Assembly (NCBI GenBank): GCA_016125285.1
Contig: WGMA01000007.1
Coordinates: 1-64,000 of the forward strand
Length of the DNA stretch: 64,000 bases
Reading direction: 5' to 3'
Origin: Phycisphaera sp.
GTDB taxonomy: Bacteria > Planctomycetota > Phycisphaerae > Phycisphaerales > Zrk34
In this document: positions 10,292 through 47,842 of the stretch, one piece after another
Layout: the number at the start of each line of letters is the position of its first letter
Numbering within the stretch: the first letter of the stretch is position 1
Translations under genes and position numbers: made by a program
Notes under the pieces: model-generated
Told to the model about the DNA's origin: nothing
The model's input: only the letters and a program-made list of their open reading frames with translations
Database searches by the model: none

Positions 10292-11725
10292 ATGTTTATT
10301 CACGACAAGACGAACCGCCGCGATTTTCTGAAGACCGCTTCCGCCGCAACGCTCGGCGCGCTCGCCGCCGGATCCCCGCGCATCCTCCGCGCCGCCGACG
10401 ACAGCGACAGAGCCCCCGCGGCGCGCGCCGACACGGTGATCCTGCTGTGGATGGGCGGCGGCATGGCGCACACCGAGACGTACGACCCGAAGCGCTACAC
10501 GCCGTTCGAGAAGGGCGTGCACGCCGACCAGGTGCTGAGCACGTTCCCCGCGATCGACACCGCGGTCGACCCCATCAAGATCAGCCAGGGCCTCGAGTCG
10601 ATCGCGTCGGTGATGGACCGCGGCACGCTGATCCGCTCGCACGTGCTCGGCGACCTCGGCCACATCCTGCACTCGCGGCACCAGTACCACTGGCACACCG
10701 GCTACGAGCCGCCGCTGACGGTCGCCGCGCCGCACCTCGGCGCGTGGATCGCGCACGCGCTCGGCCCGCGCAACGACGCGGTCCCGCCGTTCATCAGCAT
10801 CGGCCAGCCCTACGAGGGCAACGGCGAGGCCGAGGAGATCAAGGCGTTCGAGACGGCCGGGATCCTCGGCAGCGAGTGGGGCCCGTTCCGCGTGCCCGAA
10901 CCGGCGCAGGCGATCGAGGCGGTGCGTCCGCCGGCGGGCATGTCGAAGGCGCGCTTCCGCGAGCGCTACGCCGCGTACCGCAAGATGCTCGAGGCGAGCC
11001 CCGTCGCGGTGCACGGCAGCGACTATCAGCGCGAATCGCTGCTGCGGTCGCTCGACAACGCCTACCGCCTGCTCGACTCGCCCGCCGCCAAGGCGTTCGA
11101 CCTGTCGCTCGAGCCGCGCGAGTCCTACGCGAAGTACGACACCGGCAAGTTCGGCCTCGGCTGCCTGCTCGCCCGTCGCCTCGTCGACGTCGGCGCGCGC
11201 TTCATCGAGGTGTCGACCGAGTACGAGCCGTTCAAACGCTGGGACACGCACGACAACGGCCACACGCGCATGGCCGACCTCAAGAAGATGGTCGACCGGC
11301 CGATCGCCCAGCTGATCCTCGACCTCGAGCAGCGCGGCACGCTGGACCGCACGCTGATCGTGCTCGCCAGCGAGTTCAGCCGCGACATGCTCGTCGAGGG
11401 CAAGGCCGACAAGCCCGTGCAGGGCCAGGTGCATCAGCCCGACATCATCGAGGAACTGAAGTACTACGGCATGCACCGCCACTTCACCGGCGCGTCGAGC
11501 GTGCTGATGTTCGGCGGCGGGGCGAAGCGCGGCTTCCTCTACGGCAAGACCGCCGACGAGCGCCCGTGCACCACCGTCGAGAACCCCATCACCATCACCG
11601 ATCTGCACGCGACGATGTTCCACGCCGTGGGCATCTCGCCGAAGCGCAAGGTCGAGATCGAACAGCGACCGTTCTACGTCACGAAAGACGGCAAGGGCGA
11701 GCCGCGCATGGAACTGTTCGCGTGA
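10292..11725 (+). CDS. DUF1501 TAT-exported protein
   Basis: The 477-residue protein starts with a twin-arginine signal (N-R-R-D-F-L-K-T-A-S, cleavage near A-A-D at about 32). The rest is one DUF1501 domain, which belongs to the alkaline-phosphatase/sulfatase fold: W-M-G-G-G-M-A-H-T-E-T near the start and T-H-D-N-G-H later supply candidate metal ligands. DUF1501 genes almost always follow PSD1 genes in planctomycetes, as here. The enzymatic activity is unknown; a phosphatase- or sulfatase-like hydrolysis in the periplasm is a fold-based inference. A GAGG ribosome site precedes the ATG. The stop lies 26 bp before the next start, inside the edge of a palindromic repeat. Confidence 0.9.
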   Translation: MFIHDKTNRRDFLKTASAATLGALAAGSPRILRAADDSDRAPAARADTVILLWMGGGMAHTETYDPKRYTPFEKGVHADQVLSTFPAIDTAVDPIKISQGLESIASVMDRGTLIRSHVLGDLGHILHSRHQYHWHTGYEPPLTVAAPHLGAWIAHALGPRNDAVPPFISIGQPYEGNGEAEEIKAFETAGILGSEWGPFRVPEPAQAIEAVRPPAGMSKARFRERYAAYRKMLEASPVAVHGSDYQRESLLRSLDNAYRLLDSPAAKAFDLSLEPRESYAKYDTGKFGLGCLLARRLVDVGARFIEVSTEYEPFKRWDTHDNGHTRMADLKKMVDRPIAQLILDLEQRGTLDRTLIVLASEFSRDMLVEGKADKPVQGQVHQPDIIEELKYYGMHRHFTGASSVLMFGGGAKRGFLYGKTADERPCTTVENPITITDLHATMFHAVGISPKRKVEIEQRPFYVTKDGKGEPRMELFA

Positions 11726-11733
11726 CGAGCGAT

Positions 11734-11892
11734 TTCATAAGGAAAGCAGGAATGCGGAAAGCCCGAACCAGCACGAAGCACACAAAGTCACGAAGGCCAC
11801 AAAGGAGAAACCCCTTCTTTGTGTGCTTCGCGTCTTCGTGGTCTTTGTGCTTTGCATTGGTCATTGTCCTGCTTTCCTGCTTTCCTTATGAA
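11734..11892. repeat. Long palindromic interspersed repeat that supplies the 5' end of the GH5-like gene
   Basis: Perfect 19-bp outer arms lie at 11734-11752 and 11874-11892 (TTCATAAGGAAAGCAGGAA and its complement). Inside are imperfect arms made of short periodic units: CACGAAG/CACAAAG on the left and the complementary CTTTGTG/CTTCGTG on the right. The left arm carries a good ribosome-binding site (AAGGA at 11739) and the ATG at 11752; the right, pyrimidine-rich arm encodes a hydrophobic stretch. Periodic repeats of this CACRAAG kind are common between genes in planctomycetes. Confidence 0.85.
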
Positions 11893-12942
11893 TCTTCCGC
11901 CGCGCCGCTCGAGCCCATCCGCGTCAGTGACGACGGCAAGACGTTCGTCGGCGCGACGACGGGCAAACGGTTCATCGTGTGGGGCGTCAACTACGATCAC
12001 GACGGGCCCGGCCGGCTGCTCGACGAGTACTGGGACGACGAGTGGCAGAGGGTCGTGGAGGACTTCGGCGAGATCAAGGCGCTGGGCGCGAACGTCGTGC
12101 GTGTGCACCTGCAGATCGGCAAGTTCATGGACGGGCCGGACCGCCCGAACACGACCGCGCTCGATCGCCTCGCGAAGCTCGTGAAGCTCGCGGAGGACAC
12201 CGGCGTGTACCTCGATGTGACGGGCCTGGGGTGTTACCACAAGCGGAACATCCCGAAGTGGTTCGACGCGCTCGACGAGCAGGACCGCTGGTCGGCGCAG
12301 GCGGCGTTCTGGGAGGCGGTCGCGAAGACGTGCAAGGACAGCCCGGCGATCTTCTGCTACGACCTGATCAACGAGCCGATCCTGCCGGGCAAGGAGCCGA
12401 CGACCGAGTGGCTCGGCGGCGAGCTCGGCGGCAAGTTCTTCGTGCAGCGTCTGGCGCTGGAGCTGAAGGATCGCACGCGCGAGGACATCGCCGAGGCGTG
12501 GGTCAACAAGATGGTCGACGCGGTGCGCAGGCACGACGCGAAGCACATGATCACCGTCGGTGTGATCCCGTGGGTGTTCGTGTTCGGCGGGGGCAAGCCG
12601 CTGTTCTACGGCGAGCGTGTCGGCAAGCGGCTCGACTTCGTCGCGGTGCACTTCTACCCGAAGAAGGGCGAGGTCGATAAGGCGATCAAGGCGATCAAGG
12701 CGTACGAGGTCGGCAAGCCGATCGTCGTCGAGGAGACGTTCCCGCTGCAGTGCGGCGAGGATCAACTGGTCGACTTCATCAGCCGCTCGGCGGACCACGT
12801 CGACGGCTGGGTGAGCTTCTACTGGGGCACGTCGATCGAGGAGATGAAGGCGAAGAAGAATCCGTCGTTCGGCGAGGCGATGCTCGCTTCGTGGTTGACG
12901 AAGTTCCGCGAGATGGCGGACGGTGTAAAGGCCGGTGAGTGA
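11752..12942 (+). CDS. Secreted glycoside hydrolase, GH5/cellulase-like
   Basis: The 396-residue protein has a basic N-region, a hydrophobic core (about 22-44) and a small-residue region S-S-A-A-P near 50 that suits signal peptidase cleavage. The catalytic TIM barrel (55-390) has the acid/base motif D-L-I-N-E-P (Glu208) and a nucleophile in V-V-E-E-T-F (Glu327 or 328), plus F-Y-W-G-T near the end, which fits clan GH-A. Substrate is probably a beta-linked glucan or mannan, but the family cannot be fixed by eye. Residues 1-47 are encoded by the palindromic repeat. The gene sits between a DUF1501 and a PSD1 gene on the same strand and ends 11 bp before the latter. Confidence 0.8.
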   Translation: MRKARTSTKHTKSRRPQRRNPFFVCFASSWSLCFALVIVLLSCFPYESSAAPLEPIRVSDDGKTFVGATTGKRFIVWGVNYDHDGPGRLLDEYWDDEWQRVVEDFGEIKALGANVVRVHLQIGKFMDGPDRPNTTALDRLAKLVKLAEDTGVYLDVTGLGCYHKRNIPKWFDALDEQDRWSAQAAFWEAVAKTCKDSPAIFCYDLINEPILPGKEPTTEWLGGELGGKFFVQRLALELKDRTREDIAEAWVNKMVDAVRRHDAKHMITVGVIPWVFVFGGGKPLFYGERVGKRLDFVAVHFYPKKGEVDKAIKAIKAYEVGKPIVVEETFPLQCGEDQLVDFISRSADHVDGWVSFYWGTSIEEMKAKKNPSFGEAMLASWLTKFREMADGVKAGE

Positions 12943-26631: not shown

Positions 26632-26636
26632 GCCGA

Positions 26637-26700
26637 ATTTCGATTTTTGATTTGACGTATCGGCGCGCCAATTCGCTCGCATCAAATCAGAAATCGAAAT
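26637..26700. repeat. Palindromic repeat between converging genes, possible bidirectional terminator
   Basis: ATTTCGATTTTTGATTTGA (26637-26655) is matched by TCAAATCAGAAATCGAAAT (26682-26700) with one mismatch. It fills the gap between the converging helicase and amidohydrolase genes. AT-rich AAATC/GATTT units of this kind recur between planctomycete genes. The T-rich arms could terminate transcription from both sides. Confidence 0.7.
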
Positions 26701-26721
26701 TCAAAATTCAAAAATCCCACC

Positions 26722-47758: not shown

Positions 47759-47842
47759 GATTTCGGATCTTGGATTTCGGATTTCGGATTGATCCGGTAG
47801 AGCGGAGCCAAATCCGCAATCCGAAATCCGCGATCCGAAATT
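47759..47842. repeat. 32-bp inverted repeat between pgk and rpe
   Basis: Arms 47759-47790 and 47811-47842 pair over 32 positions with about four mismatches, leaving a 20-base loop. Both are made of GGATTTCGGATT-like units. The element fills nearly the whole 91-bp gap between the pgk stop and the rpe start. In the pgk-rpe message it would form a long hairpin just before the rpe start codon. Confidence 0.8.

Follow-up and report, generated by a model that had tools for sequence, protein, structure and literature searches.

A palindromic repeat as the probable source of the start and signal peptide of a planctomycete GH5 gene

The palindrome and its neighbouring genes

The window analysed here, a stretch of 64,000 nt from a Phycisphaera sp. 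contig, contains a palindromic repeat (11734-11892) that lies between a DUF1501 gene and a GH5 (cellulase-family) gene, in frame at the 5' end of the latter (Table 1). The GH5 protein scores 50.3 bits against PF00150, above the curated cut-off of 23.5, and its mature frame of 349 residues is intact, with a third-position GC of 0.94 like that of the neighbouring genes. The motifs N160-E161-P162 and E280-E281 are invariant in eight relatives; the roles of the catalytic glutamates in these NEP and EE motifs are those that we presume from knowledge of the family.

The repeat is a composite, in which a CACRAAG palindrome is nested within a TAAGGAAAGCAGGAA palindrome. As a preliminary description of this DNA had reported, its outer arms are perfect reverse complements over 19 bp (22 nt at 95% when extended), and its left half is rich in purines (68%) and its right half in pyrimidines (28% purine). 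The periodic CACRAAG/CTTYGTG units reported for the inner arms, spaced by 8-9 bp, fit at seven of the eight positions, the one deviating unit being CTTCGCG. The predicted RNA fold of positions 11700-11930 reaches -105.3 kcal/mol compared with -69.5 +/- 4.6 kcal/mol for shuffled sequences (z -7.7), and none of 200 shuffles matched its stability. Comparable inverted repeats number no more than a handful across the 64-kb window. Elsewhere in the window, a 21-nt inverted repeat of 95% identity (GAATTTCGATTTTTGATTTGA) occupies the short gap of a convergent gene pair (26635-26702), and an inverted repeat with ATTTCGGAT-like units (47760-47841) lies between putative phosphoglycerate kinase and ribulose-phosphate epimerase genes, in frame with the epimerase gene, whose ATG falls outside the repeat.

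Table 1. Features at the DUF1501/GH5 junction (window positions)
Feature	Positions	Strand	Basis
DUF1501 gene, directly upstream of the palindrome	10292..11725	+	PF07394, E 1.1e-71; 75% orthologue in G004
GTG, alternative start codon that overlaps the stop of DUF1501 (GTGA)	11722..11724	+	sequence; unpaired probability 0.996
Outer left arm, TTCATAAGGAAAGCAGGAA	11734..11752	+	perfect complement of 11874-11892
AAGGA, Shine-Dalgarno-like, 8 nt before ATG 11752	11739..11743	+	sequence; paired in predicted hairpin
GH5 (cellulase-family) gene, 396 aa from ATG 11752	11752..12942	+	PF00150, E 3e-13
Residues 1-47, encoded by the repeat: basic n-region followed by hydrophobic core, with LLSC43 towards the end	11752..11892	+	sequence
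Inner left arm: CACGAAG (11772), CACAAAG (11781), CACGAAG (11789), CACAAAG (11798)	11772..11804	+	sequence
Inner right arm: CTTTGTG (11817), CTTCGCG (11826), CTTCGTG (11834), CTTTGTG (11843)	11817..11849	+	sequence
Outer right arm; final base is the end of codon 47	11874..11892	+	arm comparison, coordinates

Start codon and N-terminal peptide of the GH5 protein

Read from ATG 11752, the frame spans exactly 47 codons up to the final base of the right arm, where codon 47 (GAA) ends at 11892; the earlier statement that residues 1-47 come from the repeat was thus exact, and residue 48 onward (SSAAPLEPIRVS...) is encoded by the gene. The ATG had been placed within the left arm, which it touches, but only its first base belongs to the perfect arm, as the final base of that arm, and most of it lies just inside. 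Beyond the repeat, there is no in-frame ATG, GTG, or TTG before GTG 11977, and this codon sits in the FIVWGVNYD stretch of the conserved GH5 core, past conserved positions. With any of the common start codons, translation must therefore begin within or before the repeat, and we reject such a start downstream of it, which the preliminary description had named as one observation that would speak against its reading. The two start candidates are ATG 11752 and GTG 11722, either of which leads into the same signal-like stretch; GTG or TTG starts within the right arm appear less likely, as the resulting signal would lack a basic n-region. The intact mature domain and the kept catalytic motifs argue that a working start has been retained.

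The AAGGA motif that had been put forward as the ribosome site is present 8 nt before the ATG, but it is weaker evidence than assumed, being fully paired in the predicted hairpin: in the predicted free mRNA, the motif and its spacer have an unpaired probability of 0.001. With the ribosome site buried in this way, initiation probably requires coupling to the upstream gene. Holding positions 11705-11740 open in the model, as a ribosome at the DUF1501 stop would, frees half of AAGGA, and translational coupling to the DUF1501 gene appears to be the likelier route of initiation.

Judged by home-made criteria (charge, KD12, and cleavage site), the N-terminus is predicted to fit the layout of a Sec signal peptide, with a basic n-region, a hydrophobic core, and a cleavage site. 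The left half encodes a K/R-rich n-region and the right half the core, as had been claimed; the n-region carries a charge of +9 over ~21 residues and is longer and more basic than those of the orthologues, and the 12-residue hydropathy of 3.07 lies at the upper end of the range of orthologue signal peptides (1.8-3.3). The candidate cleavage sites are the gene-encoded SSA-A and the repeat-encoded LLS-C43, and cleavage by signal peptidase I at the former or signal peptidase II at the latter are both possible. LLSC43 matches a loose lipobox, as do cysteines in seven relatives (L014, L019, L042, L043, L045, L049, and L055) and not in the others. The similar peptide that had been described on the minus strand from 11864 is present (MTNAKHKDHEDAKHTKKGFLLCGLRDFVCFVLVRAF...) and is a mechanical outcome of the symmetry of the palindrome. 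When the repeat-encoded 49-residue peptide was searched against 392 genomes of the phylum, only chance matches with E values of 0.005 or weaker were found beyond the copies in its own genome, and we rejected those in other genomes as chance basic-plus-hydrophobic stretches; NCBIfam holds no family that matches the repeat-encoded N-terminus.

How readily such a peptide arises can be gauged from 53 copies of the purine/pyrimidine palindromes, in which the reading frames are open in 216 of 318 cases and signal-like (basic on the left, hydrophobic on the right) in 42, by a home-made criterion of a net charge of at least +2 and a 10-residue hydropathy of at least 1.8. Shuffling the two halves separately left 165 frames open and 28 signal-like, and shuffling the whole sequence left 93 and 1.1, respectively. 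Thus, the proposed bias toward basic-then-hydrophobic peptides holds, and it is mostly a consequence of base asymmetry. These counts also bear on the alternative that the gene is simply broken, having lost its start and signal peptide, with a frame that is open by luck and a product that is untranslated or poorly exported while the gene decays. As two thirds of the frames of such palindromes are open in any case, finding this frame open says little by itself, and the buried ribosome site would hinder initiation at ATG 11752. However, the N-terminal peptide is strongly signal-like, and the mature frame has kept its full length, its neighbour-like third-position GC, and its catalytic motifs. The intact frame is not decisive, as a recent break would look alike; on balance, we consider a broken gene rather unlikely.

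Relatives, junction, and other copies of the repeat

We compared the GH5 gene with about 30 relatives of 48-73% identity from genome contigs and from genomes related to this one, whose starts were picked by a simple rule and of which two (L051 and L059) have unreadable 5' ends. Those with a readable 5' end carry ordinary signal peptides that are unrelated to the repeat, contain no repeat, and share nearly the same mature boundary. The N-termini thus differ, whereas repeat-less orthologues sharing the same 47 residues were the other observation named beforehand as speaking against a repeat-derived N-terminus. The GH5 gene falls (100/100) into a set of eight rows mostly from Planctomycetales/Pirellulaceae-type genomes and does not group with genes of its own family, suggesting that horizontal acquisition of the GH5 gene may have occurred.

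The junction itself is tight, with 8 nt between the DUF1501 stop and the palindrome and 0 nt between the palindrome and the mature-side sequence, leaving no space in which an ancestral signal peptide could lie. A simple insertion fails to explain this arrangement, which points to a replacement or a rearrangement breakpoint. No target-site duplication was found, the flanks ACGAGCGA and TCTTCCGC having no direct repeat in common. A DUF1501 gene upstream of GH5 is absent at the loci of all relatives within flanks of 1.5-3 kb (shorter on some contigs), and in the same-family genome G004 the PSD1-DUF1501 pair (identities of 55% and 75%) is present without GH5 and is followed by a putative glyceraldehyde-3-phosphate dehydrogenase gene (named from its N-terminal sequence). 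In a draft genome of 90 contigs, a neighbourhood this unique could also stem from contigs misjoined at the repeat, repeats being common misjoin sites, so that DUF1501 came to stand beside a GH5 gene without its true 5' end. However, the full composite element is single-copy in its own genome, and the other copies match it only over ~80 bp of its inner part, with no more than 83% identity, so the assembler had little cause to misjoin; such an artefact strikes us as very improbable.

The reading that we favour, and consider probably correct, is a one-off exaptation, with the palindrome standing in for a start and signal peptide that GH5 had lost, rather than a general function of the repeat. At the junction with the resident DUF1501 gene, the GH5 gene would have been deprived of its original start codon and signal peptide, and the repeat, open in the right frame, would have taken over as its N-terminus, the left half giving the K/R-rich n-region and the right half the hydrophobic core. 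The resulting protein would be cleaved at SSA-A or LLS-C43, and its translation would probably begin at ATG 11752 or GTG 11722, aided by ribosomes finishing DUF1501, a help that we propose because the free mRNA buries AAGGA in a hairpin. The sequences establish the palindrome, its reading frame, the lack of later start codons, the differing N-termini of the orthologues, and the uniqueness of the junction; that the protein is produced, that this peptide exports it, and that events took this order, like the horizontal acquisition of the gene, is what we infer.

The preliminary description had gone further and proposed a portable export signal, that is, a repeat class that recurrently supplies starts and signal peptides and spreads partly thereby. 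The frequency of signal-like frames over both kinds of shuffles agrees with this idea, as does L131 (G364 C51:36.9 kb), a secreted GH123-like enzyme with a likely GTG start that abuts the edge of a CACGAAG palindrome. However, the L131 signal peptide lies beyond the repeat, which would have supplied a start codon at most, and an entire signal-peptide core is repeat-derived in only one of 68 distinct copies, that of the window. Fifteen of the 68 continue in frame into an ORF that looks coding, and in 13 of these a plausible start belonging to the protein itself lies past the repeat, as judged from the sequences rather than by gene prediction. The search for CACRAAG palindromes at gene starts that had been suggested, carried out on the own genome by pattern and BLAST with a possibly incomplete list, yielded further copies on contigs C9, C30 (two), C64, and C67 and a degenerate one on C41, and none is fused to a neighbouring gene. 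We therefore give the portable signal very little credence.

Several observations concern the wider repeat class. A strict pattern for the CACRAAG palindrome matches 16 of 392 genomes of the phylum, and its reversed control pattern none; CACAGAG palindromes that keep the 9-bp period are present in 12 of 236 genomes, again with no control hits (e.g., G268, G210, G206, and G236; loci L232-L249). The palindromes are sometimes nested in others: on C13 (L008/L081, G000 C13:103.7 kb), a CACAGAG-type palindrome encloses a AGGAAGGCAGAAA palindrome, the reverse of the nesting in the window, where AAGGAAAGCAGGAA lies outside and CACRAAG inside. In G206, heptamers of both types surround a similar AACGG-type loop, as though the units could be exchanged, and L203 (G240) has the AGGAAGGCAGGAA class without a CACRAAG core. 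Three near-identical palindromes at L132, L268, and L270 (G364 C53, C572, and C705) have an ATG with a hydrophobic reading after it (e.g., MAFIFASFVIFV), and none of them was flagged as fused to a coding-like gene; near another copy, at L005, a tandem repeat on the minus strand (~2500) reads MLDAGCWMLDAGCW. That heptamer palindromes (CACRAAG, CACAGAG, and relatives), spread through planctomycete genomes with loops mostly particular to each genome, form an undescribed mobile class and, through their strand asymmetry, a standing source of new signal peptides for genes that come to lie beside them is an idea that we regard as quite doubtful.

Comparison with known repeats

MITEs and REP-type palindromes are small, non-coding, long-armed elements that are mostly intergenic and present in several copies, and the repeat class described here resembles them in these respects. 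Like MITEs, the window element has terminal inverted repeats, here the 19-bp perfect arms; unlike MITEs, it shows no visible target-site duplication. No parent insertion sequence was identified, the search with the element DNA having covered plasmids, where it had no match. It differs from both MITEs and REP elements in its heptamer units spaced 8-9 bp apart and in its two nested palindrome classes. No description of these heptamer palindromes turned up in the literature searched, which consisted largely of papers outside subscription.

If true, the reading of the repeat as an exapted N-terminus would provide a clear case in which a repeat that looks selfish has taken over the role of an essential targeting signal in a conserved enzyme. 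Owing to the purine/pyrimidine asymmetry of such palindromes, open frames for basic-then-hydrophobic peptides are common in them, a point relevant to the origin of new signal peptides. Repeat-derived signal peptides are already known as a kind, and the window case adds another. In Yersinia pestis, the RU-2 repeat forms the predicted signal peptide of YPO1552 (Delihas 2007, PMC2759123); that repeat has another sequence and belongs to another phylum, and the window repeat, by contrast, is attached to a conserved enzyme domain, where comparison with relatives lets the replaced signal peptide be inferred. Rickettsia palindromic elements (RPE) are palindromic repeats of ~150 bp that lie in frame inside protein-coding genes (PMC10969869). 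The window palindrome resembles them in being in frame with a protein-coding gene; however, RPE occur in frame repeatedly, with conserved peptides and in unrelated genes, whereas the class described here is fused in one of 68 copies, and at the N-terminus.
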